DNA of 64,000 nt from Chloranthus sessilifolius (lineage: Eukaryota; Streptophyta; Magnoliopsida; Chloranthales; Chloranthaceae): assembly GCA_021018995.1 (NCBI GenBank), contig CM037590.1, forward strand, positions 86,646,097 through 86,710,096, given 5' to 3'. The notes beneath the pieces are model-generated. The model saw only the letters and a program-made list of their open reading frames with translations. It did no database searches and was not told the DNA's origin. This document shows, piece after piece, positions 1,528 through 62,345 of this stretch; the first letter of the stretch is position 1; each line of letters starts with the position of its first letter. A program made the translations under genes and the position numbers.

Positions 1528-2216
1528 CATATTTAACATGAATATATTTACGCCATGAAATGGATGGATGATGAGTCTTGAATAGGGGCTCATAAATATA
1601 TCAATAGGTAGTGTGAAGCAATAGGAAGGGAAGTTAGTACATGGCTAACTTCAAAGCCATCAGGAACTGGACAAAAAGAGGATTTAGAAGAAGAAATAAA
1701 AATTTTTACAGTTTCTATGAAAATTGATTAATCGATTTTGATTTTTGATTAATCAAAAATTGTTCGATTGAACTATTGGCTCACATCAGTGAGCTAATGG
1801 ACCTCGAAAACTTTTAGAAGTTAAATTCGACTAATCGAAATAAATTCCATTAATTGATTTTGAAAATCGTCTAATCAAGTTTTGAAATCGATTAATCAAT
1901 TTCGGGCAACTGAGTTTGAATAGTCAGAATCAATTAATCAATTTTAAAATCGATTAATCGATTTTCCCCTATAGGTAGCAGTTTTGGGGAATTTTCTCCC
2001 CATTCAAAATTCAAACTATTTTTTTTATTTTGGGCGCCTTTCTTCTTCCTTCGGCTGGCGACAACAGAGAGGGTTTGAGGGCTTTGAAGATCAAGATCGA
2101 ACCAAATCATATACGTTCGGATCGATTGCGAATGGTAAGCCCTAAATCGTGCAACTTCTTTTCCATTTTGACTAATTTACAGCGCTAGGTTTAAAATTTT
2201 TGTTTAAAACCCTACA
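1486..2216 (+). other. Element A spacer between pol and accessory ORF
   Basis: This is non-coding. It begins where integrase similarity is lost, carries the ATCGAT-type array at about 1721-1966, and then a leader-like segment. A GTAAG at about 2136 followed by a TTTACAG near 2180 could mark a small leader intron, which is only a suggestion. The ATG of the accessory ORF follows at 2217. Confidence 0.55.
1721..1966. repeat. Array of ATTAATCGATT-like palindromic words upstream of accessory ORF A
   Basis: About eight imperfect copies of a word centred on ATTAATCGATT (variants ATTAATCAA, CTAATCGAAA, CAATTAATCAATT) occur in 246 bp, for example at 1724, 1746, 1827, 1849, 1887, 1928 and 1948. The same word recurs in this element's LTR at 4569-4880 and is not seen in the intervening coding sequence. 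The core ATCGAT is self-complementary and contains a CpG. Confidence 0.85.
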
Positions 2217-3583
2217 ATGCCACCTAAAACCCAGCAAGCTTCGAAGCAAGCGGCTTTTAAAATACTCGTACGGCATAAGAACGCAGCGCTAGCACCACCA
2301 TCACCTTCACCTTCACTTTCCTCTTCGTCATCATATTCGATGGAGGCGTCATCACGCCAATCGTCACTGCCACCACCTCGACCCGGCCAATTACCGCAAC
2401 CAAATGAGTGGTGGGCTGCAAAGGACTTTGAGAATGAATACATTACAGATGAAGCTCTCTTTGAGGATCCGGAGGTTGAAGGCGTCACGAAATGGGCTCG
2501 AAAATACCTCATTGATGCGAGCCTCGGTAATCTCTTGAAGCCCTTGCATGATTATTATTACCCTAGGCTAGTTAGGTTATTTTACCAACATCTGAAAGAG
2601 GGTAGGGAAATCGGCACCATTATGATCGAAATTGATGGTCGTAAGTATCTTTTAAGCCTGCGCCATATTCATGAATCCTTGGAATGTTTTCCTGTATATG
2701 TACCCGAGACCAACCTTTTACTCCCATTCGATCAGCCAATAAATTTTGAAGAAATTAGAACTGAAATGACCAAGGGAAATAAAGGGTCAAGAAAGTCCAT
2801 TCAGAGGGTTGACCCCCTCATATGTGGATGCTCGACACCATCATTAAGTGCAACCTCTACCCTATGTGCCATGACACTGAAAGGGTAGAGGGGGTGCAAC
2901 AAGCATTGTACGCTACATATAAAGGCCGTTGGTTCGATGCCACTAAGCTGGTGTTAGAAGGTATGATCTACATCAAGGGAAAGATGAAGAAGGGACCCTT
3001 CAGACTAAAGGAGTGTATGCTATATGCTAATCTTATTTCTAGCATGATTGAGTGCTACTCTGCTGCCGTAGAGTACATTATTCCTTCCATCGAGCCAAGG
3101 GCTATTGACCATGTCAAAAGTTACTCCATCGCTTCCTGGAGCCAAAGCTACAACCTATTGAAAAAGGTGCTTCCACCGAAGGGACTAGCACCTGCCCACG
3201 CTGATGATGCCCCACCACAGCAAGATCACCCAACAGCAGCAGAGCAGCCTCCTGACCCTGTACAGTCTGCAGAGCAGCCTCTTGTACCACCTCCTACTCC
3301 TATGCAGTCTGCTCCTGCTACTCCTGTGCCACCTCACTGTCGGCGTGCTCCTCGGACCTCAGCTATTGTAGATGATGTTCTGCACCTAATGGAGGCAAAC
3401 AATCAGTGGATGAACCATTGGCTTGATTTCCATGAGGCACTGCTATACCAGACCATGTAGTATATGTATCCCAGTGATTACCATCAGTGCATAGCAACGG
3501 CGTGGACGTGGACTCCTGGCGCATCTGGTTCTGGTACACAGGAACATGACGGGGAGGATCAACTAGGTGATGGGACTGCCTGA
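2217..3583 (+). pseudogene. Accessory ORF A: putative plant transposon protein domain (PF20167-like)
   Basis: The ATG at 2217 opens a roughly 455-residue protein. It starts with a basic, Ser/Pro-rich N-terminus. A globular domain follows (WARKYLIDASLGNLLKPL, YYPRLVRLFYQHLKEGR), then a second conserved block (WMLDTIIKCNLYPMCHDTE, WFDATKLVLEGM, LYANLISSMIE), a Pro/Gln/Ala-rich linker and a short C-terminal helix-like segment. There is one frameshift near 2800-2820 and one stop at 3458; the frame then runs to a TGA at 3581. The two blocks match the accessory ORF of Element C in order and sequence, and resemble the Pfam family described as putative plant transposon protein (family named from memory, not searched). 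The biochemical role is unknown. It lies between integrase and PPT, which is unusual for a Tekay-like element. Confidence 0.75.
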
Positions 3584-3965
3584 TTGTTAGATTTTGATGC
3601 TTGTTTTTGGGTTATGATTATTTTGGGCATTTTGGGAACATGGTGGGGAAATGTAAAACAATTATGGAACAGTGGATGTTTCTTTTTGGGGAAATTATAG
3701 TTTTAAATTAATATTTAGAAATCCGATGTACCGAACGATATGGCATGGTTGCCATTGTTTCTTTTTAAGCTAATACAATTCAAATCTTTATTTTCTTACA
3801 CTTTCTGTTTACTGTTAATTATGTGCAAATGTAGTTGAGCTTTATGAAGGATGTATTGTGATTGTGGTTGTATCCATCGCCTTGTGTTAATGTGTGTGTG
3901 TCTTCCATGGAAGGGGAAGCCTTTGGGTGCATTTTTAAGGATGAAAATTCTCAAGGTGGGGAGAA
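3584..3965 (+). other. Element A 3' untranslated stretch and polypurine tract
   Basis: A short AT-rich 3' segment ends in the purine run AAGGTGGGGAGAA at 3953-3965, immediately before the LTR start TGTTACATCC. A purine run abutting the TG of an LTR is the expected primer for plus-strand DNA synthesis and fixes the element's orientation as +. Confidence 0.8.
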
Positions 3966-6347
3966 TGTTACATCCCCAAAAATTTAGGCTTTGATTAGTA
4001 TCCTCGGGATGCATGCCCGACTGGTCGTAAGTTTGATCAAGTGAAAGTCAACTTGATAACTTAGGCTATACTAGGCTTGAGGTGAAAAGTATACCAAGGT
4101 GTGTGTTGTGGGTCTTGTTATAAGGTCATATCACCTGTTAAGGGTGTATATACTTTGCACCAAATGTATGAAATGAGTTAAATAGAGTATGAGTTAAAGA
4201 GAAGTTATTTCTCTTTGGTTTTAGTTGCTGGTTTGGAAATTTATGAGGAGAGACAGATTAGAGCAAAAGGGGGAGTAAATGCTTGGGAGTTAATGTGAAG
4301 GAGCTTACGGGATGGCCTTACGAAGACATTAAATTGCGATGATAAGTGGTCTGGTTCGTTGGAGTCGAATCTAAGAACCCTAGCTTTTGATCCAAGCCAT
4401 TGAATCACTCATACTTTGGATTTGAGGTGAGATTTCATTAAATTATGATGTGTGTGATGCTGTGCATGAATTTATTAAATTAATGATGAATTAGAGAAAT
4501 AGAAAGAGGAAAGATTTGAGATAAAACAAAGTTGGAAAAACAGCCCGAAAAGGGCTGGTTTTCTGTCAAAATCGAATAATCGATTTGAAAACCGATTAAT
4601 CGATTTTTGACAGAAAGCAAATTTGGAGACTACAACACGAAACCCATTAATCAAATTAAATTTGATTAATCGATTTTTGGTTTTCAATTAATTGATTTGG
4701 AATCGATTAATCGACTGGGTACTTCTAGTGGCTGGAAGAATCTGAGTTTTGAAAAACCGACGAATCGATTTTGGGATCGATTAATCGATTTTAGAATTTC
4801 GATTAATTTATTTGGGATCGATTAATCGAAATTAGAAATTTGATTAATCGATATTGGGATCGATTATTCGATTTTGACAGTTTTATGTGAATTCTGTTTT
4901 AGACCTTGGAGTTCTGGGAGGGCCTTGTACCCTTCTTTTATGCATCGTTCTTGATGCTTTGTGTATGACATGATGTACTTTAGGTTGAGCACTTGGATAT
5001 GGACATGGAGAGCTCCTTTGGACCTTGATGCTTGGGGTTAAAGCACGTGATGTAGGAAATTCTTTGAATATATACTTTGATCACGATAGCATGTATGTAG
5101 TGATGTGAAAATGTGTATACATGTGTGAGGGCATAGAGATATGCTTGTGTTTCCGAAAATTAGTTAAAACATGTGAAAATTAGTTAAAACATGTGTACAC
5201 TAAAAAAGAAACCAATAAGCATATAAATGTGTGACATCTGAGGGATGTATTTCTTTTGATGTGAGCATCTAGGTGATGCAAATGATGTAGACAAGACTTG
5301 AACAAAACTTTAAATTATTGTATTTAGCATAACTTCATGGTGAACAACTATATGTATTTTACACAGTTGATTTGAGGTTCATAGAATACCCTACCGACAC
5401 GGCGGTATACTCGTGACTGACTCGACAGAATATCTGTGACCGGTATGGGGGCCAATCCGTACAAACATGAGATGAAATTACCAAGAGGGTAATGAGTATG
5501 CCAAGTCGCCTCGGTGAATGGGACTTGAGCTTGTATTTAGTTGAAATATAGTTCAATTGAACGACGATGGTGAGTATTCCATCGGGGCTTGATGCATACG
5601 GATTATTTAAGTTATTTGATTTAAGTTTCAAGACCGATCTTCTAGCCTATGTGAATAAAATTGAAAACAAGTTAACCCGTGTAGAGTAACAGATGCATTC
5701 AGTTCATGCTTTCAGTAACTTAAATTGCTTTTCAACTGTCTCTTATTGGTAAATAATGTTTCATAATGTCATGGAATATATGTGAGTAAGATAGACTTAT
5801 ATGTTCATTCAGTTAATTTCCTATAAAGCTATGATGTAGCTCACTCCTTCGACTATATGTCACAGGTCTAGTGTTAGTTGTTGCTACTGCTTGGGAGATG
5901 TTGATCCGGAGGATTCTGATTACGTGCTTGGGGAGGAGTCAGAGCCCCCTACCAAGGAGTTCTCCTAGAGGACCCTCTGCATACTTTGATTATTTTGTGA
6001 GAGAGATTGTATAGCTTGGCATGTCCAGCCTTTTGTATCAGATAATATAAATTTTTGTGAGACATTCTTTTGGCGAACAATCTGGGGTGATGGCTGTTTC
6101 GTCACCGATGGTTCGGGTTGGTTCTTTTGCTCATACATTGGCATCAGATTAGAACTATCTTTTGAACTACATGTCTTTGGCTTTATCTTATAGAACTGGA
6201 GAGTTAGTTCAATATTAGTTTGTTAGTACATGTTTTGTTTTCTAGTTGTGTGGATATACCAAATGTTCCGTGCATGTATATGGGACATGGCCTCGAGGGT
6301 CATGCCGATGGTACGAGTTTTGAGGTGCCAAAATTTGGGCTGTCACA
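3966..6347 (+). repeat. 3' LTR of Element A
   Basis: It starts TGTTACATCCCCAAAAATTT directly after a PPT and ends AATTTGGGCTGTCACA. The ends form an imperfect inverted pair (TGTTACATCCCC against TGTGACAGCCC), as in Tekay-type LTRs. Length is about 2.38 kb. It holds the ATCGAT array at about 4569-4880 in its first third. The partner 5' LTR is outside the window, so the right boundary rests on sequence pattern only. Confidence 0.75.
4561..4880. repeat. Array of ATTAATCGATT-like palindromic words inside LTR A
   Basis: About ten copies of ATTAATCGATT-type words lie in 320 bp, at roughly 4569, 4592, 4662, 4687, 4701, 4757, 4776, 4817, 4840 and 4860. The first two are arranged as a large imperfect dyad: a TTCTGTCAAA arm at 4561 faces its complement at about 4605-4616. 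The same words occur upstream of the accessory ORF at 1721-1966. Confidence 0.85.
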
Positions 6348-11951: not shown

Positions 11952-14677
11952 TGTTGTAAAGGACTTACCAGTGTGCTGATTTTATTATGTGTTCAGAACA
12001 AATTGAAAATTAAAGTAAAATAAAAGATGGAAACAGCACAACTAAAGTAATCCTAAGCCTGTAAGATACAGGGCTATTGTAGCAGGTTTTGATAGGTAAG
12101 AGTTTGTCCCATAGAGATATTGATCTAGAACCCAAAATTGGCTAAAATAGTAGGCTTCTAGATCTGGCTACAGATCTGACAATCCTAAAAAAAGGGAGTT
12201 AGGTGTCACAACTACACTAAATTACCTACTAAGAAAAGAAAAGAAATAAAATGCAGTCCTATCCTAAGATGGTGATGGTATGTTAAAATAAAGATAAAAG
12301 GGTGAGAAGTAAATAATTTAGATTAAAGTTCATTCAGTTATATAACTCTGATTTAGGGCTCTCTCTGCAGTAAATTCTTACTAAAGTGCTATCACTAACC
12401 TGAGCAAGGTAGAAGAATCCAACTTAACCCATGCCATTTGGAGCGCTCTTCAGGCTATAGTCTGTCCACTCAAATGGCCATAGTCTATCCAATAGAGTCT
12501 GTTAAATCCCATTGATCAAGCAAGAAAAGCTGACCTAATCCAAAGGAGTGAGCTGATGAAACCACATCTAATGAATCAAATCAGGCCGTGAATACCATTA
12601 CAGACACTATGTTTGCCAGTGCTCCAAGCTCCCCATATCTGCGCACAGATCTGGCTAGCATTTATAGGGGTATTAAACCTAGGAAGATCAGATGGCAATC
12701 AAAAGATCTAAAGGTTAAGCAAATGGGCAAATCTCAAAAACACAAATCCGATCGAGAATCTAATGGAACCAAAAGACCTATAGGTTTAAATAGACTTTAA
12801 ATCAACAATTTATTGCTTAAAAATTGCTTTCAATATAATGTCCTCACTGTTGCAATCACTACAAAGAAGCCAGATCTAGCATCTGATAGCAATCAAGTGA
12901 AGCAAAGGGGAGCCTGTTCCTGCACAATCTCTCACCAGGCTACAAGTTCTAGTACAGAAAAAACGAATTCATCTCAGATCTGTGACCAAGCTTTCCCTAG
13001 GGCTATAGTCTGTCCACTCTAATGGTCACAAGCTATCCACAGAGGCTCCCTTACCCAAAAATGATGAGACAGAACATGTAAACTGCTGCTACCACCATGG
13101 TCCCCAGGCTACATGCTCAAGCTTCCATGTTCCTTTCAATAAGCTTAAATCCTAAATGCATGCTATAGCCTGAACAGAACTACGAACAAATAGAAAAATA
13201 ACAGATTGAGTAAGCATTCAAACATAAATTCCATTGATCTGATGTTAGTAACAATGAAATCTCTCAAGGCAGCAGCCTTGTGCACAACAGTTCAACAAAA
13301 TTCCAAATGTTTAAATGACCTATTACAAAACTTAAATAAAACTACACCTAAATGCTCACCAAAGATTTAGCTAGCAAGTGCTGGGGTAAGAGAGAAAAAA
13401 AATGGAAAAAGAGGTGATCAAACCCTAACCCTAACCCTAGTCTACTTGAGCTCTCAGCCGACAGAGGTTGAAGGAAAGAGTGATTGATGGTTTCTAAGTT
13501 ACAAGCGTAGCTTATATACTTAGTCCTAATATTGTGGCTGAGAGAAGAGTAAACCTAATTTTTCAAGCAGATGTGCCACTGTTACAACCCATAGATGTCT
13601 TGAGATGCGTGCATCAGGATCCGTGCCTCAGGATGTGTGCCCTAGAGCTGGGGAAATCCCTAAAAGGTCCTTGAGTTAAGATTGAGAAGTGGAGAGCTCG
13701 AGCTTCGCAGGGCTGGTTCTTGCATATCACTTCTATCGCACAGCTGCAGAGTGTTCGCGGGGTAGAATTTAGCTTGGAATATTTTTGTCTCGCGCAGTAG
13801 AGCTTTGGGTGATCGCGTAGCTGCTTTAGCTTTGATTGCACTCACGAAAAAGAGCTTCAGGTGCTTAGCTTGCTTGCACAGAAGAGCTTCAGGAACTTCA
13901 TTTATGAGGTACTCACACAGATGCCTCCACATCTTGCTTGGTACAGATTTAAACTTTTAGACATGCGAGAGCTGCACAAGGGAACTTCAGGGCGTCTCTC
14001 TCTTCCAGAGCCACCCGAGAACTTGTCGAGGTCTTTACTGTTGTTCGCGCCAATTGGTCTCACGGGGTAGTACGCACGGTTGCATTAAGGTTTGATCCTC
14101 ATGAGAACTTCACGAGTTGTATTTTTGGAGGCTTAGTGCGTGAGAGCTCCATGAGTTTCTTCACATGTAGATTACAGCTGAACTACGCAACTACTGCACG
14201 AGAGCTACTTTGTGATAACCCCTTCATTGAGTTGCGCGACTTCTTCATGAGCTCTATTATGTTGCATATCTTTGCTGTCCGAGGGAGCTCTGCCAGTGAA
14301 TTGAACAGTGCGAGGTAGCACCTCAGCTGTGAGAGATAGGTCCTTTGCTCCTCTGCTGCTATGCACATGCTTCTGTTATAGCTTCCTCCTCTCTAACTTA
14401 TACTTCATTCATCTGCTGGATTTTCTTGGTCCATTATGACATGCAAAATAGTCACCATGGTGTGTACCACCATGGTGTTCCATCACTTTCTAGTTCAACT
14501 GTCATCTTTTGCTTGAATTCTCTCTTCTTGGCACCAAAAGCATAAACTTTGTGTTAAGCTGCATAGTCTAATACTAACTACAAAACAAGCTAAAAAGGAG
14601 TTATTAGTCAGCTTCAAGGTCCAACAAATGCTACGTTAATAGGTGAAAAGTGATACTTTTCAGTGAATAACAGGACT
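11947..14677 (-). mobile_element. Solo LTR of the Element B family with TSD GGACT
   Basis: The 11952-14672 sequence (2721 bp) is homologous along its length to both LTRs of Element B, with TGTTGTAAAGG at the left end and GTGAATAACA at the right. GGACT occurs on both sides (11947-11951 and 14673-14677), the 5-bp duplication of one integration event. No internal sequence remains, so the element was lost by LTR-LTR recombination. The transcriptional orientation is - (TATATAAG read on the minus strand at 13511-13518). It holds a GCGAG/TCGCG array at about 13700-14330 upstream of that TATA. A CCCTAACCCTAACCCTA run at about 13424 is telo-box-like. Confidence 0.92.
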
Positions 14678-29990: not shown

Positions 29991-30056
29991 ATCTTTGCTA
30001 ATCCCTGAGCAAAGCAAAATTTAAACAACTACTCTAAGAATATAAATGCCACTTTC

Positions 30057-39192: not shown

Positions 39193-39198
39193 AAAACT

Positions 39199-48345: not shown

Positions 48346-48569
48346 ATGGTATTCTGAATATTCCCAGCATATGCAAGGGCAATTCAATAATCTCTGCATG
48401 CGCCCCAATGCATTTAAAAACCTAGGGACATTCCGAAAGATTCTGAGCACGAACCAAAGGCATATTCCACTCCATGTGAATACCCAAAGATAAAATTACT
48501 TGGCGGGAACTTCTAGAAGCTCAAACAAATTTTTAAATTACATAACAGAATTGATGCTTCTGTCACTTG

Positions 48570-48712
48570 ATTGGCTGAACCAGATCAAGCAGTTCTGATT
48601 GGCCAGAACAGATCTGGATCCTTGTGCTCGACTCCTATTGGCTGATATGGATCTAACCAATTCTGATTGGTTAATACACATCTGAAATGGACTTGGGGAA
48701 AAACTATAAATA
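48570..48712 (+). promoter_or_regulatory. LTR promoter of Element C: CCAAT-type boxes and TATA box
   Basis: ATTGG (reverse CCAAT) occurs in TTGATTGGCTG, CTGATTGGCC, CCTATTGGCTG and CTGATTGGTTAA between about 48571 and 48680. CTATAAATAG lies at 48704-48713. The 3' LTR has the same layout with the TATA at about 61394-61403. Transcription start would be expected some 30 bp after the TATA. Confidence 0.75.
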
Positions 48713-49718: not shown

Positions 49719-49736
49719 TGGCGCCGTTGCCGGGGA
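49719..49736 (+). other. Primer binding site of Element C, tRNA-Asp
   Basis: TGGCGCCGTTGCCGGGGA is the exact complement of the 3' end of plant tRNA-Asp including CCA (tRNA sequence from memory). It starts six bases after the LTR end. Athila elements are known to use this primer. Confidence 0.93.
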
Positions 49737-49907
49737 ATAGATCTTAAAATTGGTAGACCTAAGTTTTTTTATTATTATTACATCAGTGCTAACTGTTCTA
49801 TTGTTTAAATCTGTGCAGTTATTCCTATACATTTGAGCCTGGAATCTACTTTGAAAGGAATACTGAAGGTTTGCTTTGCATAATTTTACTCTCTGTTTCT
49901 GTGTTGT

Positions 49908-51610
49908 ATGTTTGGTAGGACTCTCAATCCTGAGATTGTCCCTCTGAATTTAGAAGTTGAAAAGCTACTAAGAACCAGACAAACATCACAGAATTTTGCT
50001 GAGACTGCTACTATGGGTGAGCAACCTAGACTTTTGAGAGATTACTTTGCACCTGGTGCATATAATTCCCCATTTTGTATTCAATTTCCTACTGTTGAAG
50101 GAAATTATGAGATCAAATTATCAACTATCCAGATGCTTCCTTCCTTCCATGGTTTGAGTAAGGAAGATCCATATAAGCATGTGGATGAATTCTTATCCCT
50201 TTGTACAACATTCAACATAGCTGGACTGGGTCCAGAGGCAACCAAGCTCAGGCTCTTTCCTTTTTCATTAAAGGATAAAGCTAGAGCATGGTTGTCCATG
50301 TTGCCACCAAACAGTATTACTTCTTGGAATGATTTGCAATGTCAATTTTTAGCCAAATACTTCCCTATGTCTAAGACCAGCCAGTTGAGACAAAATATTG
50401 TTTCCTTCTCCCAACACTCAACTGAAATTTTTCATGAGGCATGGGAAAGGTTTAAAGAACTTTTAAGGCAATGTCCTCATTATCAAATTCCCCAATGGCA
50501 GCTTGTTCAAAGCTTCTATCAGGGAATTGATTAAAAGGGCAAGAATATGGTAGATGATTCATGTGGAGGCACCTATTTACAAAAAACTGTTGAGGAGGTC
50601 TGGGACCTATTTGAAGTTATTGGTGAAAATTCAACTCAACAGGAATCTTTGTCAAGAGACATTGAGAATCCTACTCGGTCGAACAATCAGCAGACCACCA
50701 AGGGAAAGATTTATGAGGTGAATGAGTTGGAAAGGAAGATGGATAATTTAACCATCAAGTTTGACAGATTGATTGACTCACTTAAAAATCCAATGGTTGC
50801 AAGAGTGGAGGAGGCATGTCTGATATGTCAGTGCCCTACTCATTCCCATGATCAATGTCCAGCTGCACCACAGTTCCCAGATCTAGTGGTGGAGCAAGCT
50901 CATGCTGCCCAATCATTTGGACAGATGCAATCTAATGAATATACATGGAGAGGACACCCCAATTTAAGGTGGAGCCAAGGCAATTATCAATCACAACAAC
51001 AGCAACAACCAAAGAACCAAATACCCTTAAAAACTGCTCAGCCTTACCAGTAGAATTTTTATACCAAGTCAAATTTTCAGCAGCCTATTCCACAACAGAT
51101 GGCACAACCTGTGCAGCAATTTGCTCCAGTTCAAACCCCTTCCAGATCCCCTTCTTTTGAAGACCATGTTCTAACTTCACTCTAGAATTTAGGGTCTTTA
51201 ACTCAGACTGTAAACTTTCACAGTCAAAGTATAAAGAAGATTGAAGAAACATTGGGTCAACTTTCAAATACTTTGGCCAAAAGAGAGGAAGGCAGGTTAC
51301 CCAGCCAACCCTTGAACAATCCTAAAGGACAATTCATGGTTGGAGAGGCTTTTGTTTCACATGAAGAAGTAAAAGCTATCACTACCTTGAGAAGTGGAAG
51401 AGTTGTAAATAACAATGTAGGTACTGAAAAGGACGAAGTAAAAATTAAGGAAGCTGCTAGGAACATGCAGTAGGAGCAGCATGATGTTAGCATTGGGGGT
51501 ATTGATGTACCTCAGAAAAATCAAAAAAATAAAAAAACAAAAAATCAAAAAAGTTCTGGTGATGATTCAAAAGTTATAAATGAAGGACTAGTTACTCATT
51601 TACCATTTCC
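49908..51610 (+). pseudogene. gag: Element C gag
   Basis: The ATG at 49908 starts MFGRTLNPEIVPLNLEVEKL. The capsid-like region holds YNSPFCIQFPTVEGNYEIKL, GLSKEDPYKHVDEFLSLC, GPEATKLRLFPFSLKDKARA then WLSMLP and WERFKELLRQCPHYQ. A CX2CX4HX4C knuckle follows (CLICQCPTHSHDQC, about 50818-50860), then a Gln-rich tail and a Lys-rich end. In-frame stops at 50532, 51051, 51183 and 51471 break an otherwise continuous reading (the frame shifts once near 50535-50547). Gag forms the particle and binds element RNA. A protein of about 560 residues would be expected. Confidence 0.92.
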
Positions 51611-52240
51611 CCATGCAATTAAATCCGCACCTCCTTTTGATAAAGGAAGTACAAAAATAGACGAAATGATGGAGACTTTCAAGCAAGTCAAGATAAATAT
51701 TCCTTTGCTTAATGCAATCAAGCAAGTCCCAGCCTATGCAAAATTTTTGAAGGACATTTGCACACACAAAAGACAATCTAGGATCCAGTTATCCAAGAAG
51801 GTCTTTGCTGTGGAAAGAGTTAAACAGGTTTTGTCCATTGCCACACCTCCTAAACTGCAAGATCCTGGAATCCCCACAATCCCTTTCATTATTGGGGAAC
51901 ATACCATTGAAAAGGCTTTATTAGATTTGGGTGCTAGTGTCAACCTGCTTCTATATTTTGTATATGAGAAACTAAGTTTGGGAGAATTAAAACCCACTCA
52001 TGTGGTGTTACAACTAGCAGACAGATCTGAAAGAAAGCCAGTTGTGGTGATTGAAGATGTATTGGTAGGGGTAGATAAGTTTTTCTGCCCTATTGATTTT
52101 TTGGTATTGGACATAGAGCCTACAAAAACAGAACTTCTATCCCTGTCATTTTGGGGAGACCATTCCTGGCTACAGCCAATGCTTGCATTCAATGCAGGTC
52201 TAGTATTATGGAAGTGTCTTTTGGAAATATGAAGGTAAAG
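51611..52240 (+). pseudogene. PR: Element C protease
   Basis: Open for 188 residues. MMETFKQVKINIPLLNAIKQ leads to TIEKALLDLGASVNLLLYFV (active site DLGAS, about 51920-51940), then ERKPVVVIEDVLVGVDKFFC then PIDFLVLDIE. The frame is lost near 52140, before the conserved GRPFLATA, which is found in the next frame at 52151. It would cleave Gag-Pol. Confidence 0.9.
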
Positions 52241-52702
52241 TTAAATATTTACAATGCAGTTACCCAGCCTCAATTCAGTTCTGAGGAATGCTTTTTTGTT
52301 GATTTGTTGGATGAACTGGTAGAAGAAACTTTACCACGGTTTTTACAGTGTGAAGATTTAACCACAGATTTTGAAGATGTTTGGAGAAATGTTATGGAAG
52401 AGACAGTTTGTGCCTCAAAGTCTGAGGAAGTCAAAGCTGTGCAAGAAGTTCATGTCCAATCAGCAAGGTCTTCTTCATGGAAACCTGCTATTTTTCTCCT
52501 TCCACAGACAGCCAAGGTACCTCTGTTACCTTCTTTTCTCAGCCCACCTGATGTAGAGCTGAAACAGTTGCCAGAAAATTTGAAATATGTGTTTTTAGGA
52601 GACCATAAAATATTGCCTGTGATTATTTCTTCCCCCCTCACTAAGGAGCGGGAGGAAGAGTTGCTGATTGTATTGAAACAGCATAAGAGGGCAATTGGCT
52701 GA
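52151..52702 (+). pseudogene. Element C protease C-terminus and linker to RT
   Basis: MGRPFLATANACIQCRSSIM closes the protease, followed by an acidic linker (VDLLDELVEETLPRFLQCED) and ELKQLPENLKYVFLGDHKIL. A TGA at 52700 interrupts it in AIG-TIADL, where related elements have Trp. Confidence 0.85.
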
Positions 52703-54120
52703 ACTATTGCTGATCTGGGAGGAATCAGTCCAGCTATTTGCGTACATAAAATTCACTTGGAAGAAGATGTAAAGCCTTCTAGAGAAATGCAAAGGAGGCT
52801 AAATCCTCATATGCAAGAAGTGGTCATGAAGGAGGTTGTTAAGTTGTTGGATGCTGGGGTCATTTACCCCATCTCAGATTCAGCTTGGGTGGCACCTACA
52901 CAGGTGGTACCTAAGAAATCTGGGATCACTGTTGTAACCTCAGATTATGGAGAGCCTATTTCAACTAGACAAACAACTGGTTGGAGGGTCTGTATTGATT
53001 ACAGAAAGCTAAACACAATGACCAGAAAGGACCATTTCCCTCTTCCATTCATTGATCAGATTTTAGATAAGTTAGCAGGAAAAGCTTATTACTGTTTTCT
53101 TGGTGGTTACTCTGGTTACAACCAGATTCCTATGTATCCACAAGATCAGGAAAAGACCACATTCACTTGCCCCTTCGGCACTTTTGCCTATAGGAGGATG
53201 CCTTTTGGTCTTTGTAATGCTCCTGCTACCTTTCAAAGATGGATGTACTCCATTTTCTCTGATATGATTGACCAATTTATGGAGATTTTTATGGATGACT
53301 TTTCAATATATGGAGACAGTTTTGCCCAGTGTTTACATCATCTCAGCTTGGTGTTACAGAGATGTGAGGAAACCAATTTAATTTTGAGCTAGGAGAAGAG
53401 TCATTTCATGGTCACCCAAGGCATTGTCCTTGGCCATGTTGTCTCCCATAAGGGCATTGAGGTGGATAGAGCAAAAATTGATTTAATTACACATTTGCCT
53501 CCTCCCAAAACTGTTAAGCAAATCAGAAGTTTTTTGGGGTATGCTGGATTTTACAGGAGGTTCATTAAGGACTTCAGTAAAATATCCAAGCCTCTTTGCC
53601 ATTTATTGTGCCAAGATGTCACTTTTGTTTTCAATGATGAATGCCTTAGGGCATTTAAATTCTTAAAAAATTGTTTGATTTCAGCTCCAATACTACAGTC
53701 TCCAGATTATTCACTGTCTTTTGAGCTGATGTGTGATGCATCAGATTATGCTTTGGGAGCTGTTCTTGGGCAGAGAAAGGATAAGCTGCCTCATGTCATA
53801 GCTTATGCCAGTCGATCAATGATTGATGCACAGCTCAATTACACAACAACTGAGAAAGAGCTGCTGGCAGTTGTTTTTGCCCTGGAGAAGATCAGGTCAT
53901 ATGTTTTGGGTTCACGAATTGTGGTGTTCATTGACCACTCAGCCCTAAAATATCTTCTGTCTAAGAAGGATACCAAACCAAGATTAATCAGGTGGATCCT
54001 CCTATTACAGGAGTTTGATTTACAGATTAAAGACAAAAAGGGTGTGGAAAATGTGGTGGCTGATCACCTGTCTAGAATTATAACTGCTGAGATTGATGGG
54101 TTGCCTATCAATGACTCTTT
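52703..54120 (+). pseudogene. RT-RH: Element C reverse transcriptase and RNase H
   Basis: RT: LLDAGVIYPISDSAWVAPTQ then VVPKKSGITV, GWRVCIDYRKLNTMTRKDHF, GYSGYNQIPMYPQDQEKTTF and catalytic FMDDFS with FMDD at 53288-53299. A stop at 53390 (ILS-EKSHF, where Trp is usual) is the only break here. RNase [21 protein letters not shown] (about 53719), [32 protein letters not shown] and [11 protein letters not shown] (about 54046), all catalytic acidic positions present. The part 53408-54430 is open for 340 codons. RT and RNase H copy the RNA genome into DNA. Confidence 0.94.
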
Positions 54121-55449
54121 TCCTGATGAGCAACTTTTTGCTATCAATGTGCATACCCCTTGGTTTGCAAATATAGTCAACTTTTTGGCTACTGAGAGGA
54201 CCCCTCAATACTGGAATAAAATGGATAAAGATCTCTTCTTCTCAAAGGTTAAACACTTTATTTGGGAGGATCCTTACCTATTCAAGATTTGTGCAGACCA
54301 AATCATTAGAAGATGTGTCCATGAAGAAGACTTCCACAGCATACTTTCCATGTGTCATGAACAGGCCTGTGGAGGTCATTTTAGTGGAAACAAAACTGCT
54401 GCAAAGGTTTTGCAGTGTGGATTTTATTAGCCGACACTTTTCAAAGATGCACTACAACACTGTAAGTCTTGTCAGAATTGCCAGAGATTGGGCAACATTT
54501 CCAAGAGAAATTCAATGCCTTTATAGCCCATTTTGGTAGTTGAATTGTTTGATATTTGGGGGATAGATTTTATGGGACCTTTTCCTCCTTCAAATGGTTT
54601 TAATTTCATCTTAGTAGTTGTGGATTATGTATCCAAATGGGTTGAAGCCACAGCCACTAAAACCAATGACCACAGAGTTGTCCTTAAATTTTTAAAGGAC
54701 AATATTTTTTCCAGGTTTGGTTCCCCCAGAGCCATTATCAGTGATGGAGGAAGCCATTTTTGTAATAAGCATTTTGAAGTTGTATTGAAAAAGTACTCTG
54801 TGACTCATAGAGTAGCTACTCCATATCATCCACAGACTAGTGGACAAGTGGAGATTTCCAATAGAGAAATCAAACATATACTCGAAAAAACTGTGAGGAA
54901 GGACAAAAAAGATTGGTCCCTTAAGCTAAATGATGCATTGTGGGCATATAGGACAGCCTATAAAACCCCAATTGACATGTCCCCATTCAGATTGGTTTAT
55001 GGTAAAGCATGCCATTTACCAGTGGAGTTAGAATATAAGGCCTTTTGGGTCATTAAAACTTTAAACATGGATCTTACTACTGCTAGTAATCACAGGAAAC
55101 TGCAGCTCTCTGAGTTGGAAGAGCTAAGGATGGATGCATACACCAATGCAAGATCTTACAAAGAAAAAGTTAAGGCTTTCTATGATAAAAATCTGCTAAG
55201 AAAAGATTTCACAGCTGGCACAAGGTATGGTTATTCAATTCAAAACTCAAGTTTTTTCCAGGAAAGCTAAGATCCAGATGGGAAGGGCCATATACTGTCA
55301 TTCAAACATCTCCATCTGGAGCTGTTGAAATTATGGACCCAAGTGATGGGAGAACCTTGAAAGTAAATGGTCAGAGGCTCAAACCATGCATTGAAAATAT
55401 TCTGGAGCCTGTGATGACCATCTATCATCAAGAGCCTCCACAAATCTGA
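54121..55449 (+). pseudogene. INT: Element C integrase
   Basis: The zinc-binding part reads [20 protein letters not shown] and, after a TAG at 54428, CKSCQNCQRLG. A second TAG lies near 54516. The core (54533-55270) has [40 protein letters not shown] and [20 protein letters not shown], giving the three acidic residues. The C-terminal module ([13 protein letters not shown] and VNGQRLKPCIENILEP) follows after a frameshift near 55224 and ends at TGA 55447-55449. Integrase would join the cDNA to the target, consistent with the 5-bp TSD. Confidence 0.93.
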
Positions 55450-56300
55450 TGTCACACAACTGTATCATAGGTATTGTAACTGTCTCTGTTCTGTGATTAT
55501 AGAATAGTTTTGTAATTTTTTTTTTGTTGTTTTAGTCATGTTTTAGTTAAATTTCCTTTGAGGAATCATGAGTTCTGAAAGTTTTGTGGTTAAATTTGAG
55601 TTTTGTACTTCAGAACTTTTGTTCATAATTTTTGAAAAGTTTTACAATCATTTCGTAAAGAAAAATTCATTTCGAAAAGAACAATCTTCTTTTCAAAAAG
55701 GATCTGAACTTGTAACCATAACTGTTCGAAAAGAATGAATTTGCTTTTCGAATAGTTGTGTCTGGAGCTTTTTGCTTCTCGAATAGTTGTTTCTGAAGCT
55801 ATATGCTTTTCGAATAGTTGTTTCTGGAGTCTTTTGCTTTTCGAATGGTACTAATGCCATTCCCCTTTTTGAAAAGGACTTTTTTGAACTTTTCGAAAAC
55901 TTCAATAAGGCTTTGCAAAATCAATTTAAGCATATTTAAACCCATTCGAAGCAAGGTTTTCATATTCGACAGCATTCCAGCCCGTCTTGTGTCGCGAAAA
56001 ACCCATTTATTTTTCTCTACGTTCTTCGGGAGCTCTGAACGAATTACCTTCATTTCTTTGCCATTGATTATGCTTGAAAAGAAGAACATTTTGCCTCTGG
56101 TTTTGGTGGATTTGATCAAGGGGTCAGATATTTTGAGCAAACCCTAGGTTTTGGTATTTTTCTCCCCATATGCTCTGTCTGTGCTTTCAAGATTTGATTT
56201 TTTTTTCTATAAACACACATTGTCTGAGATTCTAGAGAATTGGTAGTTAATTGTTGTTAAAAGGAGGAACTTTTTGAAGAACTGTTTAGAAATTGTTAAA
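55450..56300 (+). other. Element C spacer between pol and accessory ORF
   Basis: Non-coding, AT-rich. It carries the TTCGAA array (55652-55999), AAACCCTAGGTTTTGG at about 56140, and a TATA-like CTATAAACAC near 56208. The accessory ORF starts at 56301. The layout looks like an internal promoter region. Confidence 0.6.
55652..55999. repeat. TTCGAAAAG / CTTTTCGAA array upstream of accessory ORF C
   Basis: Boxes near 55652, 55671, 55725, 55744, 55775, 55806, 55838, 55889, 55945, 55964 and 55992 in both orientations; several are followed by TAGTTGTTTCTGGAGC-like text with a period of about 31 bp (55744, 55775, 55806, 55838). The core TTCGAA is self-complementary and contains a CpG. Confidence 0.88.
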
Positions 56301-58735
56301 ATGGGAAAAGCTGAAAAATCGTTGGCTCCAATGTTCCCTAGGTCTTCTACTATGAAAGTTAGTAAGCCCTCCACCAAAGGAAAAGCCAAAACCTCAGCCA
56401 AGAGAAAACTGTCGATGGATAAGGCTGATAAAATTGAGAAATGAAAGAAGGTTAGAATTGAGGAACCCATCCCCGCAGCTGACCCTAGTCCTGAGCCTGA
56501 GCTTCCTCCTCTTCCTATGCATTTGGTACTGCCAAACCCTTTCATCGAAGCTCAGAAACTGATCCGAGAGCTTATTGTTGATGAGAATTTTTTCTTGAAC
56601 AAACCTGAATGTATGCTATCCTTGAACTACATCAGGGATGCTTCATTGAGTAATATCCTAACCCCTCTTCTAGAGAAAATTTATCCAAGAATGGTGAGAT
56701 TATGGTACCAAAACATGGTGAAAGTGACTGAGAAGGATGTTGATGTCCCAACTCTTGTAATTTTCATTGATGATTGTGATTTAACAGTCACTTATGAAGA
56801 CATTGGAAATGCCTTGGGAATACCATTTCAGCATGATCCGGCTGGTCCTTTGGCTGCACCAGAGACATCTCTTTTAGAGAAATTGCTGCACATCTAACCC
56901 AAGGCATAGTTGCAACTGGACAGTCCATCATGAGGAGAGACTTAGCACCTCAATTTTTGCTGATGGATTCCATTTTGAGAGGTTGTTTTTATGTCACTGG
57001 GCACAGTCAGGAAAGAAGGACACCCATTTTGGAGGCCCTCTTTCATTTTTCAAAAGGGCAATTCTTCAATGCCCTTATGCTGATTTTGGAAGCCATGGCT
57101 GACATTAGTGCCAAGCTGAAGAAGGAACAGAAAATAGCTGGACTACCATTTGGAAGGCTGATCACAGCCCTACTTAGGGCCAAATTTGACATTAATGAGT
57201 AAGAGCCATTTAAAATTGTATCCCCTCATGCTTTTGGGAAGAGGGCTTGGACTATAAGCCAAACCATGTTGAATAGAATGAGGGAGGAAGCTGAGCCAGC
57301 TCAAGAACCTGATATACCTGCACCTGAGGTGACCAGCTCTTTAGTTGCACCCATTGCTCTTGTAATTGCCAGTGAACCTACTATACCGGAACCAGAGGTG
57401 ACCAGCTCTTTAGCTGCACCTATTGCACCTGCAGCTGACATTGAACATACTACCATTGAGGAGGTACCCAGCTCTTTAGCTATACCCATTGATGAGGAGA
57501 TCATCATCTAACCAACTTCTCCTATCACAGCTCCCATCCCTTCACCTTTCCCAGCAGTGCCATCACTCATCACCACCATAATCCCAATTATAGATTCTCC
57601 CTCTACACCAACCACTCCGGCCATACTTACACCACCAATTTCACCTAACAATTCCCAAGCTATTGCCACAGATTTTGTTGAACACTCTCCTGGCACTTCT
57701 ATCCTCCAAAGTTTCTCAGGTTCACCAGCTCATTCAGTCCATACACCTGAAACTACCCATACTCCTGAACCTGAGTTATTCACCACTGAGGCCTAGTCAT
57801 CCTTGATGGGATCTATCTTGGAGAATATTGGGCATGACTCTGTCCTCATGCCTGATCCCCCTCAATTCACTCATTTGGCTACTTCCCCCTTTACAGTCAT
57901 CCCACCCATTGCCCCCCAACCATCTCCATCAATCATACCAGCCCCTACTCTACCTACCCCACCCACACCTGACACAATTAGCCAAATCTTCACCTTTCTC
58001 CAATCTATCCAAGCTCAACTTCAGATCAACACAGACAACCAGTCTGTGACAAATTCCATTCTCCAAACCTTGGCCTCCACATCCCAACCAACTACCTTAG
58101 CCACAGTACCATCTGTTTTTGACCAAGCTACCCAAACAGAACAGGAAGCAACATTTTTAGATCCACTCATCCTTGCTGTTTCTGATCAAGCCACCCAAAC
58201 TGATCCAGAGGTAGTGCTTGTAGATTCATCTTCTCCCACCCCCACTGCTGGGATACATATGGTCCCCTACCACTCCATTCCCATCCCACGTATTGCCACT
58301 CTTAAAAGGGCTATGGAAGAGAACCCTTACATCTTTCGTGACGTCCTTAAGGGGATTGCAGATTTCCACGCTTACATCAAAACTTCTTATGAAGACCAGA
58401 TTCGAAAGTTGGAGCTGTTTATGAAATTTGAGAGAAATAAGATGCAAGACCTGTTGAGCCAAACATTTCAGATGGTTAGGAGTGAACAGCACAAAGTTAC
58501 CATGTTACAAGAGAGTCTGGCACAAGAAAAACTGAGGACTGATAGACTTGCAAAATATATTGGCCTCACCAAAAAGATCAAATCTGAGGAGTACACCGAA
58601 CTTCAAGCCACAATCCAAGAGAAAGCTAAATCGAGCTCAGACTCCAATACTGACTCAATTTCTGACTCCAACAGTGATTCCAGTTCTGACCCCATTGAAC
58701 AAACTTATGATATAGACTTTGACCCTAGTTATTAG
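56301..58735 (+). pseudogene. Accessory ORF C: large post-pol protein with PF20167-like domain
   Basis: The ATG at 56301 gives a basic N-terminus (KPSTKGKAKTSAKRKLSMDK), a stop at about 56442, then the domain (YIRDASLSNILTPLLEKIYP, RMVRLWYQNMV, and after a frameshift near 56870 LLMDSILRGCFYVTGHSQER, FFNALMLILEAM, LITALLRAKFDI). A Pro/Thr-rich linker with three repeats of EVTSSLVAPIA type (about 57325-57490) and two DQATQT motifs (about 58120 and 58187) follows. The C-terminus is a probable coiled coil (about 58380-58560) and an acidic Ser/Asp tail to 58735. Stops at 57200, 57509 and 57794 are in one frame. Length would be about 810 residues. In Athila elements this position is called env-like; I see no signal peptide or membrane segment here. 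It resembles accessory ORF A. Confidence 0.8.
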
Positions 58736-58915
58736 AATATCTTGTACATGTCTGTTTTGTTGGTTCTGGAGTGTGTAATTAATGTTTACTGTTGACTTTT
58801 ATTAATTTTTGATTACTGTGCATTTCTTTTCTTTCTTCTCTGTCAATATGCTCTTTGTTTTTCCTTCTTTTCTTTTTGCTTATTCACTTCTTGACCAGTG
58901 AGGACACTGTTCATC

Positions 58916-58933
58916 ATAGGTTTGGGGGTGTGG
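58916..58933 (+). other. Internal PPT-like box of Element C
   Basis: ATAGGTTTGGGGGTGTGG repeats the terminal PPT 1.6 kb further upstream. The counterpart in Element B is at 31603-31619 with conserved flanks (GAGGACACT before; ATTGCCAAT after). Confidence 0.8.
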
Positions 58934-60349
58934 CAGAATTGCCAATAGTTTAGTTAACATCAATACAGCATATGAGCAGCAGAGTTTTTGAAATTGAAGT
59001 GTTTTCACACCCGCTTATTTTTGAAAAAAATGGGGAAGTTAAAACTTTTTAAAATTAATTTCCTAGTGTAATTCTAATACTGTCATAAAATGAATGTCAG
59101 AAAGTTTCCAAAAGAAAATTGATGTTTCGGTAAACCTAAAAAGAGAGAGAATAGTAATGATACACCTCAGCATGTTGATAGAAAACCACAGCCAGTGAGA
59201 TTTGGACCTAAAATGAATTCTTTGGAGGATTGAATTGGCATTTTTTTTCTGCTCTAGGGACTGCTTGAACCTGCTTACTTTCACTAGAAGTTACACATAT
59301 CCAAATTGAAATAATTTGACAGTAATCATGATATTATAGACATGATGTAAGGCCTCCTTTTTGACAGTTTGAGCTTCAAAAAGCCCCACCTTTTGAAACT
59401 GCCCTTGATACACACCATTTGAGCTTTATAAATCTAAGATTTCTTTGAAACATCATCAACCTCATTTAGCCTAATCCTCACTCTGAAAATTCAGAAGGTA
59501 AAGGAAAGGAAGTTGAAGAAAGGAGATTTGGGTAACAGTTGGTGATAAAAAAAATAATAATAATAAAAAAAAATAGTTGAAGGCAATGATGTATCAGCAG
59601 AAGAAGTTTGGCATTCAAGTCAATGTCATTTTGTAAAAAAAAAAAAAAAAAAGGGGGGAAGAAAAGTCATTTCATTTGAAGTTTGAAAAAGAAAGAGAAA
59701 AAGATGGCCACTTTGGCTCTAAAAATTCAAAGGAGAAAATGAAATTGTGATGAATTAATAAAAGGTGTGTCTGTCACTTCCTTACCTTGACTGACTTCTA
59801 GATTGTGAAATCCATTCCAACCCTTTTATTCTTGATAAATTTCACCCATAAGCCACATTACAACCCAAGTTAAAGTCCTTACTGATAAATGATGGATTGA
59901 GCTATCACATGGAGATAAGGATTTGTGTAATCTATGGTGAAAAGAGCAGTGAATTCAGAACTAAAAAGCAATGCCTATGCTCCTGCTTACAGTCCTATTT
60001 GAGGGATGTAACTGCTCTTGAGCTGTGTGAAATAGTACAACCCTCTTACTTGCATGTTGAGTGAAAATCCTGGTAAGAGTTGGGTTTGAAATCAACTTAT
60101 TGGGGTAACATCAAAAACTGAATTCTCAAATAGAAGGCAAGCTTTTCATTAATTTGTCTTGTAAAAACTTTTTGACAAAAACTGAGTGAATGGTAAAAGG
60201 AATTACAGCAGAATTTTAGTTTTGAACTGATAGTTTCTTGAGATTCCTCTTACAGCCTGACTGATGCAGGAGTGAATAATCTGATTGGATGAAAGTCTGC
60301 TTTAACGGAACTGCATTGATATTAACTAATTTATTGGAGAAGTTTGTGG

Positions 60350-60452
60350 GTACCTTCACTGAAAACCCTCAAGAGACTTCACTCCTCCACTAGGGATCAC
60401 CTAGGGGTTTAAAAGGCTTGTTGCATATGCTAAATGCAACTGTGCTCCCTAC
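60350..60452 (+). other. Conserved 103-bp non-coding block, Element C copy
   Basis: GTACCTTCACT...GTGCTCCCTAC, gap-free match to 30057-30159 (minus) of Element B with 8 differences. It includes CTTCACTCCTCCACTAG and GGCTTG...GCTAAATGCA. It ends 59 bp before the PPT. Confidence 0.9.
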
Positions 60453-60510
60453 AAAAATGGCTTTTCATTCTGTTTTTAAATTTTGTCTTTGTTCAGAGAC
60501 TAGCAAAGCT

Positions 60511-60524
60511 TAGGTTTGGGGGTG
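60511..60524 (+). other. 3' polypurine tract of Element C
   Basis: TAGGTTTGGGGGTG lies directly before the 3' LTR start TGTTGAGAAC. It primes plus-strand synthesis in this class of element. Confidence 0.88.
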
Positions 60525-62345
60525 TGTTGAGAACTGGAAAATACCATTTTCCACCCCTTAACCTGAGTCTTGATAGACCTTTGAGAGTACTAAATAAGTG
60601 TTTTTAGCGTTTGTTTTACAGTTAACAATAAAGGCAGGCTTAACCCTGAAAGCAGCTTAAAAGTGCCAAAAAGATGATGACTCATGCTAATCTAGTGGAA
60701 GAAGGAGAAGGGACAACCTCACTGGCTATCAAAATGCCTAAACTAAAGAGGACAAAGGCCTGGTTTCAACCTGGAAAGAGGTTTGGAGCTATTCGAACAG
60801 AAGAATGCATTACAGAATGCTATTCGAAAGGATTCCTGAACTATTCGAAAAGAACCTGAACTTTGCGAAAAGAACTAAAAGCTCCAGGCTTAGTTTTCAA
60901 AGAGCACCTGAACTATTCGAAAGGATTCCTGACCTATTTGAAAAGAAGAGAACTCCTTGTGAACAACACCAGATCTGTACGAAAAGAGCTTCAGAAGTTA
61001 CAGTACCTTGCGAAAAGTTTTCCAAACTGTGCGAAATGGTATTCTGAAGATTCCCAGCATCTGCAAGGACAATTCAATAATCTCTGCATGCGCCCCAATC
61101 CATTTAAATACCCAGGGACATTTTGAAAGATTCTGAGCATGAATCGAAGGCATATTCCACTCCATGTGAACACCCAAAGATGAAATTACTTGGCGGGAAC
61201 TTCTAGAAGCTCAAACAGATTTTTGAATTACATAACAGAATTGATGCTTCTATCACCTAATTGGCTGAACTAGATCAAGCAGTTCTATTTGGCCAGAACA
61301 AATCTGGATCCTTGTGCTCGACTCCTATTGGCTAATATGGATCTAACCAATTCTGATTGGTTAATACACATCTGAAATGGACTTGGGGAAAAACTATAAA
61401 TAGACGAACTATTTGCCCAATTTGGGTATCCAGAGTCCGAGTTTCATTTCTGCTGCCCCATTACCAATTCAAATAGCTTGTCTGAAACCTCCGTAATAGC
61501 CTAGCTTTTGTTTGTAACTGAGAACTGTGAGACACTTATGTAATTCAAGTGAGAATTGTATTCAAGACTACAAATCCGAGAGCTGTTTAAGTTGTTCTTT
61601 GTAATTGTAATGGTGGATTTGAAAAGGTTGCTTTCAACAGTACGTTCTCAATTGGATTCATGTTGAGGGTTCCTTATGATATCCTTACTCATTAGACTCC
61701 TTTAGATCTATTATTTTTTTTAAAGAAATTTCCCTTAATTCATTATCCCTATGAGAATCTGCGTTTGTAACCTAATTTCTTACAACATTTGTAGTGGTGC
61801 TCATGTTCATGACAGTGGACAGATCATAGCCAGAAGTTCAACTCAATCCTAATCCTTGGGTTGCACTATTTTCTCTTACATCTGAGCTGGTAGCCAGATG
61901 AAGATTTGGATACTTTCTTGACTGTGCTACACTAGTTCTCATTTTGTAATCAGTTACTAAGCTTAAGTCAACTATTATTTCTCCATTCTTATTAATTTTA
62001 CATCCAATTCCCCCAACTCGGATCTGGATCACTTAGTTTAAATTCTACTTTTAGATAATTTAGTTAATGTGACAAATTCAACCTCTCATCTTATTCGGTT
62101 TGTAGATAGGATTAGAGGCCAGATCTGGTAGCTCAGATCTGGAGGTTTACCATTCATTTTAAATCAATTCCCTGTGGACGATCTTTTACTCACTTGCTAC
62201 AATTGGCCCTGATCTTGCAAGTTAATTAATTTCTCTCTGTGCTGATATTTATTATTCTTTTTAATTTTCCAGATTCAGTATAATTTATCATTTGCAAATC
62301 TATTTTAAAAATACAAATAAATCATGCACACTTAGAACAGTAGCA
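60525..62345 (+). repeat. 3' LTR of Element C (1821 bp)
   Basis: It begins TGTTGAGAACTGG and ends ACAGTAGCA. It is colinear with 47918-49712 apart from three indels (83 bp in the array, about 50 bp near 61808 and about 12 bp near 62195). It has eight TTCGAA-type boxes (60792, 60823, 60844, 60864, 60916, 60978, 61009, 61030) and TATA at about 61394. Confidence 0.95.

Follow-up and report, generated by a model that had tools for sequence, protein, structure and literature searches.

Does a retrotransposon mark its long terminal repeat (LTR) and the stretch before its accessory gene with one and the same family-specific word, and what would read such a mark? The question is raised by a window of 64,000 nucleotides from Chloranthus sessilifolius (GenBank assembly GCA_021018995.1, contig CM037590.1, positions 86,646,097 to 86,710,096 of the forward strand; all coordinates below are those of the window), which holds three LTR retrotransposons, here called elements A, B and C. 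A sequence-only reading of this window had proposed that each element carries a CpG-palindrome word of its own, clustered only in its LTR and just before its accessory open reading frame (ORF). Both the two-site logic and the family specificity of the words are supported by shuffled controls, by the ranks of window pairs and by cross-site models with an area under the curve (AUC) of 0.86-0.93; the arrays, placed at an LTR promoter and a putative internal promoter of each element, are probably read by one family-specific factor.

On recount, the array coordinates of that reading were right and its clustering at the LTR and before the ORF (pre-ORF) was confirmed; the words themselves are degenerate, and one array, in a third LTR of the B family, had not been listed. 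The arrays are the following (bp, base pairs).

1721..1966, + strand: A pre-ORF array; 7 copies of a word near ATCGATTAATCGAT, gaps 21, 82, 19, 42, 42, 20 (scanned stretch 1690-1990, word cost up to 3)
4561..4880, + strand: A LTR array; 11 copies of the A word, gaps 20, 70, 22, 19, 54, 20, 22, 19, 22, 20
32559..32945, - strand: B pre-ORF array; degenerate word near CTCGCGTAG, 24 CpGs in 32500-32970, ATG at 32263 downstream
29055..29665, - strand: B 3' LTR array; 32 CpGs in 29040-29680, TATA at 28869 downstream
40955..41560, - strand: B 5' LTR array; 30 CpGs in 40940-41570, TATA at 40773 downstream
13700..14350, - strand: array in the third B-family LTR; 26 CpGs, B's CpG word
55652..55999, + strand: C pre-ORF array; 11 sites of the C word (scanned stretch 55600-56010, word cost 2.5)
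48226..48345, + strand: C 5' LTR array; without 83 bp present in the C 3' LTR
60792..61037, + strand: C 3' LTR array; 9 words near CTWTTCGAAAAG, gaps 31, 21, 20, 32, 20, 21, 41, 31 (scanned stretch 60700-61130, word cost up to 2.5), TATA at 61395

All eight window matches of exact ATTAATCGATT fall in A's two sites, four in each, and seven of the eight matches of exact TTCGAAAAG lie in C (six pre-ORF, one in the 3' LTR, none in the 5' LTR); the clustering claimed for the C word in the LTRs holds for its degenerate form, near AACTATTCGAAAAG, the exact word being found there just once. TCGCG has 20 of its 28 window matches in the B arrays, five of these in the third B-family LTR (13755-14235), and GCGAG 25 of 55, the third LTR included. 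When degenerate words are counted, 18 of 25 matches fall within 1.0% of the window for A, 25 of 72 within 1.8% for C and 31 of 58 within 3.7% for B. Motif finding by expectation maximisation led to diffuse models, and CpG-centred models were used instead; oriented about the CpG, the context is, by our reading, close to AAAATCGATTAATCG at both A sites and to AACTATTCGAAAAG at two C sites, the 3' LTR and the pre-ORF array, its form in the C 5' LTR being weaker, and B has a degenerate CTCGCGYAG-like pattern.

In each of the three elements some 250-300 bp separate the end of the pre-ORF array from the ATG (at 2217, 32263 and 56301), and TTTAAACCC lies near the downstream end of that array in both B (32583) and C (55934). 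As had been proposed, the LTR arrays of B and C lie 5' of a TATA box, which is common to the LTR copies (40773, 28869 and 13518 in B; 48705 and 61395 in C) and stands among several TATA-like matches there; no clear counterpart was seen in A. In C the two LTRs, the same at insertion, now differ by 83 bp in the array (60780-60862 versus 48172/48173), or about eight helical turns, and array length therefore changes even within one insertion.

Sharing, phasing and symmetry of the words

Three tests that presuppose no word, all taking the array regions from the sequence-only reading, bear on the sharing between sites. In the first, the k-mers (6, 7 and 8) of each pre-ORF stretch were compared with 628-630 windows of 400 bp, against 60 dinucleotide shuffles each. 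Enrichment over shuffled sequence, which had been named beforehand as a check, was found: the own-LTR window came top in all 18 lists, with best z values of 14.5 (A), 12.3 (C) and 6.3 (B). The second compared all window pairs, 191,706 in number, with aligned homologues masked. The best pairs made of an element's own two sites ranked 21 for A, 7, 84 and 37 for B and 1 and 23 for C by CpG 7-mers; 3 for A, 57, 250 and 68 for B and 1 and 74 for C by CpG 8-mers; and 1 for A, 118, 637 and 906 for B and 3 and 71 for C by all 8-mers. The six tested pairs that join a pre-ORF stretch to a foreign LTR (B and C being represented by their 3' LTRs) ranked 1634 or worse in all three k-mer sets. In the third test, models of the flanks of CpGs were built from one site and applied to the other, with 914 background CpGs of the window for comparison; pre-ORF-trained models recognised own-LTR CpGs with an AUC of 0.90 in A, 0.92, 0.89 and 0.89 in the three B-family LTRs and 0.86 and 0.92 in the two C LTRs, and in the reverse direction LTR-trained models gave 0.93, 0.88 and 0.90 on their own pre-ORF arrays.

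The elements had been described as three independent cases, which does not hold: B and C are sister families of presumed Athila type, with amino-acid (aa) identities of 57-69% in gag, 73% in reverse transcriptase (RT) and 78% in integrase. They can be aligned over gag, pol, the 3' non-coding part, the LTR end and short pieces of the later LTR, and across the purine tract and LTR start at 80% over 321 bp; over the arrays, no alignment between them was found. B and C carry different words, each common to both sites of its own family, and this joint difference at both sites is the best argument for a single trans-acting reader.

In A and C the word centres sit at multiples of about 10.3 bp, and thus on one face of the helix. 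Centres were scanned with deaminated CpGs allowed at low cost, and significance was taken from 3000 random placements. At the loosest threshold, p was 0.0033 for the A pre-ORF array (7 sites), 0.0017 for the A LTR (11 sites), 0.010 for the C pre-ORF array (11 sites) and 0.0017 for the C 5' LTR (5 sites, dependent on the 3' LTR), while the C 3' LTR, with 9 sites, gave a power of 8.58 of 9 that was reached by none of the 3000 placements. Stricter thresholds returned 0.020 (A pre-ORF), 0.0093 (A LTR), 0.027 and 0.012 (C pre-ORF), none of 3000 twice (C 3' LTR) and, of two scans in the C 5' LTR, 0.0067 in one, the other having too few sites; scanning with a shorter C word gave p 0.0004 before the ORF and none of 5000 in each C LTR. 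Such helical phasing amounts to a quantitative prediction of same-face binding.

The palindromic nature ascribed to the words is a more divided matter. Dyad symmetry about the CpG was found in three of three C islands (p 0.045 or less over four positions) and over the inner four positions in A (p 0.017 and 0.0006); it is lost in A over eight positions (0.13 and 0.22), and in B it was not seen in any of four islands (p 0.63 or more).

Elements, CpG content and accessory ORFs

The elements, the third LTR and the accessory ORFs lie as follows.

Left window end: element A, 3' part only; pol to about 1485, then array, accessory ORF, purine tract and putative LTR
3966..6347, + strand: putative 3' LTR of A; purine tract, then TGTTACATCCC ... 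CTGTCACA, a single copy seen, ends by inspection
2217..3460, + strand: A accessory ORF; disrupted by a frame change, in frames 2208-2888 and 2813-3460, which overlap
27292..41893, - strand: element B, Ty3/gypsy of presumed Athila type; LTRs 39199-41893 and 27292-29976
11970-14672, - strand: third B-family LTR; 84-85% identical to both B LTRs
47918..62345, + strand: element C, Ty3/gypsy of presumed Athila type; LTRs 47918-49712 and 60525-62345
56301..58735, + strand: C accessory ORF; in pieces through stops and frame changes

Gag and RT-RNase H matches in Pfam, together with homology, were found in the elements of the window, and from these domains we take the elements to be Ty3/gypsy and not Ty1/copia. 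The lineage names (Athila for B and C) are likewise our assumption; of the marks looked for in an Athila element, namely a Ty3/gypsy pol, an accessory ORF that follows pol and precedes the 3' LTR, and a primer-binding site TGGCGCC..., the domains and gene order were seen, with no demonstrable ORF in B. Target-site duplications flank both B (GTACA, 5 bp) and C (CTAAC), the ends being set by inspection. An integrase zinc domain was detected in the A pol (Pfam), and the A RT is 40% identical to that of C over 218 aa. With the C integrase and a B/C RT alignment, no relatives were found among the viral contigs searched, a collection suspected to be poor in plants. The A LTR start, TGTTACATCCC, resembles the published common Del U3 att, TGTAACACCC (PMC4029996; statements on this and the other papers, cited by PubMed Central number, refer to their accessible parts). 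Elsewhere in the window, a more distant Ty3/gypsy pol lies between B and C (42058-44243; RT 29% and integrase 31% identical to C), tandem repeat blocks with units of about 140 and 165 bp occupy 17416-17854 and 18582-18990, and the window pairs 40001 x 63601, 7501 x 9001 and 18301 x 45701 have many 8-mers in common (z 10 to 12.5) outside the masked homologies.

In the coding parts of B and C the CpG observed/expected ratio (o/e) is near 0.06, with 17 and 13 CpGs in 5600 bp each; the 400-bp bins holding arrays stand at 0.41-1.13, and one C bin that merely overlaps an array at 0.21. Judged by local CpG o/e and with no island caller, B and C have their main CpG-rich stretches at the arrays, and those of A form a peak over a higher background. 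In these copies, which are dead, the array CpGs have decayed: between B's two LTRs, 17 of 45 array CpGs are kept versus 3 of 20 outside, and of the 28 that changed, 26 now read TG/CA. Since these LTRs were identical at insertion, their arrays were CpG-rich at that time and decayed later, and the active lineage thus kept its array CpGs while the coding part had lost its own. Full protection of array CpGs after insertion was considered and rejected, the B LTRs differing at 28 of 45 array CpG positions. The kept fraction is higher inside the array in all four LTR comparisons (17/45 v 3/20, 16/41 v 4/18, 17/42 v 4/20 and, in C, 5/8 v 7/15), and array CpGs are perhaps partially protected, with a decay somewhat slower than outside. 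Either selection on the words or freedom from methylation of the arrays in active copies could keep the array CpGs.

The C accessory ORF encodes a basic start (14 lysines and arginines in 47 aa), a Transposase_32-like middle, a proline-rich part and an acidic serine-rich end. Its homology with the A accessory ORF was found in two pieces, one 33% identical over 123 aa (E 5e-13) and the other 35% over 60 aa (E 7e-12), although the pol genes and the words of the two elements differ. One C piece resembles Transposase_32 (PF20167) weakly, at E 0.0011 and 19.4 bits versus a curated cut-off of 45; PF20167 was absent from the four other accessory pieces, the curated cut-off was reached in none of the five, and none of the same five matched DUF1985 at E 10 or better. 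No transmembrane segment was seen in five open A and C pieces (the middle of C left out), the top 19-residue mean hydropathy being 1.21. A's two accessory pieces had no relatives in the protein collection searched, which is suspected to be poor in plant sequences, and a PDB sequence search with one of them returned three matches at E 0.62 or worse. What had been called an ORF remnant in B is an ATG at 32263 followed by an early stop, with no detectable homology to A or C. The last C accessory piece (57797-58735) has DQATQTE and DQATQTD stretches, a part that looks coiled-coil-like by eye and the acidic serine-rich end; its TQT motifs are, we presume, akin to dynein-light-chain binding sites.

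Possible readers of the arrays

Taken together as a mechanism, each element would possess two promoters with the same family-specific cis-array, namely the LTR promoter (U3) and, ahead of the accessory gene, an internal promoter formed by the pre-ORF stretch. One sequence-specific factor may bind both arrays, cooperatively and on one DNA face in A and C; such a single reader can fairly be drawn, at the level of sequence, from the family-matched words and from the phasing in A and C, because B and C, as sister families, have separate words and each uses its own at both sites, and because the words of A and C are helically phased. The reader would most likely be the accessory protein, so that its gene would act back upon its own promoter and also upon the genomic transcript, whether by transactivation in the manner of foamy virus Tas or by local removal of silencing in the manner of VANC. 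The CpG in the word may let methylation switch the sites off, a notion consistent with the CpG-rich arrays. The whole chain, from two-site arrays through one family-specific factor to the accessory protein itself as that factor, we regard as quite possible, though we would stop short of calling it probable. More doubtful, if still conceivable, is its most specific form, in which a Transposase_32-type accessory protein binds phased arrays of a family-specific CpG word at the LTR and at its own promoter and counteracts silencing, as a private feed-forward switch; a change of specificity would then be followed by replacement of the word at both sites, leaving sister families mutually blind.

A number of observations weigh against a private, phased code read by the accessory protein. 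The two-site sharing is weaker in B, whose all-8-mer ranks run from 118 to 906 of 191,706 and whose own z values with all 7- and 8-mers (5.0-5.1) are approached by unrelated windows near 15500 and 44800 (3.9-4.4). The B model also scores on the C LTRs (AUC 0.77 and 0.89), six other cross-tests gave AUC 0.59-0.66 with p below 0.05, and the LTR arrays of B and C have k-mers in common (rank 63 by all 8-mers); the words are thus not wholly private. The co-variation rests on three elements, of which B and C are sisters. When all CpGs are taken instead of words, phasing loses strength (in A, p 0.015 before the ORF and 0.13 in the LTR; in C, 0.044 before the ORF, 0.028 in the 5' LTR and none of 4000 in the 3' LTR), and B has no clear phasing, with p 0.046-0.51 in the 10 of 12 word scans that had enough sites and 0.10-0.70 for all CpGs. 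The phasing was first noticed by eye in C and several thresholds were tried, so that the C values are not blind and A serves as the independent check. Tandem repeats explain part of the spacing, with units of 20 and 41 bp in the A LTR and of 20-21 bp in the A pre-ORF array, and blocks of 31 bp in the C pre-ORF array and of 20 bp (2.8 copies) in the C 3' LTR; the 31-, 32- and 41-bp gaps of the latter are not what tandem duplication alone yields. On the protein side, Pfam revealed no DNA-binding domain in the accessory pieces scanned, a structure model from the two-sequence alignment was unusable (mean pLDDT, the predicted local distance difference test score, 35.6), and B is without a demonstrable accessory protein.

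Among the alternatives, the one to be taken most seriously, although we consider it rather unlikely, is that host transcription factors, recruited family by family, drive both the LTR and the accessory promoter, the accessory protein having some other role (env-like or in movement). Where two promoters need the same host input, a reader encoded by the element is not required; phasing is compatible with host factors too, and the boxes of Sireviruses, which have the same two-site layout, mainly gave stress-related plant cis-elements (PMC2829016). Small excesses at single sites occur here as well, such as a heat-shock pattern in the C 3' LTR (2 versus 0.5) and the W-box core in the A LTR (3 versus 0.9), but of eight patterns sought in eight islands, a short list and not a motif database, only ATTAA/TTAAT and GATTAATC clearly exceeded shuffles at the two sites of one element, and these are parts of A's own word. 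A stable host factor, moreover, would not favour a word that differs between sister families at both sites.

A passive origin, whereby the pre-ORF stretch is an old LTR copy (by capture, template switch or gene conversion) and the words are alike by descent and not by function, appears improbable. Short tandem repeats are present in the A and C arrays, and A's best local alignment between pre-ORF stretch and LTR is long, scoring 61 versus a shuffled maximum of 40, but A aligns equally in both orientations (59 and 61), as palindromic arrays do. All three B-family LTRs remain at or below shuffles (26, 21 and 24 versus maxima of 32, 27 and 29), and C exceeds them in one of two LTRs (33 versus 29; 29 versus 33). 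The words also recur at altered spacing, the gaps of the C 3' LTR ranging from 20 to 41 bp with the helical period kept. A partial LTR duplication before the ORF was accordingly rejected, there being no colinear block in B and a marginal one in C for one of two LTRs. That CpG- or AT-rich stretches of low complexity are alike by chance is very improbable: the arrays are locally CpG-rich and the A words AT-rich, but the tests used dinucleotide shuffles or the other CpGs of the window, and the six cross-element pairs of pre-ORF stretch and LTR do not score. Chance and composition are refuted for A and C by the shuffles and pair ranks, and for B mainly by the CpG k-mers and CpG-flank models.

Known systems and implications

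The sequence-only reading had offered the VANDAL/VANC system as a loose precedent; it can be kept as an analogue for family-specific motifs, but the closest precedent is found in the boxes of Sireviruses (PMC2829016). In these Ty1/copia elements an element-specific palindromic motif occurs in many copies in the upper LTR, 5' of the TATA box, and again 5' of ENV, where 77 of 79 copies of the linker box lie upstream of ENV; the boxes mark CpG islands, an internal promoter was proposed, and nine elements with ENV have linker boxes while four without ENV have none (PMC2829016). The elements described here resemble them in having an element-specific repeated motif in the LTR and before the accessory gene (strong in A and C, weaker and mainly at the level of CpG k-mers in B), LTR arrays 5' of TATA in B and C and arrays that are local peaks of CpG o/e, and the Sirevirus box of Tnd-1, ACAATCGATTGT, holds the ATCGAT core, as does word A. 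Unlike Sireviruses, they are Ty3/gypsy, and the CGG..CCG core of 12 of 13 Sirevirus boxes (PMC2829016) occurs in none of eight islands here. Helical phasing, and sister families whose words differ at both sites, are seen here and are not described in the accessible part of PMC2829016.

As a working system, the closest analogue would be foamy virus Bel1/Tas, which binds response elements in the LTR and in an internal promoter (PMC517496). The likeness lies in an accessory gene with a putative internal promoter (PMC517496, PMC8670036, PMC4929722); in foamy virus one element-encoded protein binds both promoters, whereas here such binding is conjectural. For family-specific anti-silencing motifs the closest analogue would be VANC (PMC5735166): the VANC21 motif YAGTATTAY forms dense arrays, derived from tandem repeats, in non-coding parts, and co-evolution of protein and motif was proposed (PMC5735166, PMC10398659). 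A family-specific short motif in dense non-coding arrays is common to both cases, but VANDALs are DNA transposons with a CpG-free motif, and the five accessory pieces here lack a DUF1985 match. The 3' accessory ORF of sunflower Athila has Transposase_32 and is predicted to be nuclear (PMC11728184), which agrees with the present elements in lineage, ORF position and Transposase_32 similarity, the basic start being a feature of the protein here; a cis-array is not mentioned in the accessible part of that paper. Del (Tekay) LTRs have a CpG island in their upstream part, variable in length and sequence, with the eudicot group devoid of islands (PMC4029996); they share with the present elements a CpG-rich stretch in the upstream part of the LTR, but the accessible part of PMC4029996 describes no second site before an accessory ORF. 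No earlier report of two-site arrays in Ty3/gypsy elements was found in a search without most subscription journals. The layout is thus known from Sireviruses, and what is new is its occurrence in Ty3/gypsy, the phasing in A and C, the words of the sister families and the homology of the A and C accessory proteins.

The function of the accessory genes that plant retrotransposons carry between pol and the 3' LTR has been called rather speculative in a survey (PMC6317226), and their ENV-like role controversial in a review (PMC7264820). A family-specific word at the LTR and in the stretch before the accessory gene, in Ty3/gypsy as in Sireviruses, points to gene regulation and not to envelope function. 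In one sunflower Athila clade, a drop in methylation was reported in the LTRs, its modulation by element-encoded proteins being left open (PMC12844716); word arrays of the kind described here are candidate targets for such modulators. If the feed-forward switch is true, retrotransposons would join VANDALs and foamy viruses as a third kind of element that activates itself in a sequence-specific way, and their unexplained accessory genes would gain a function.

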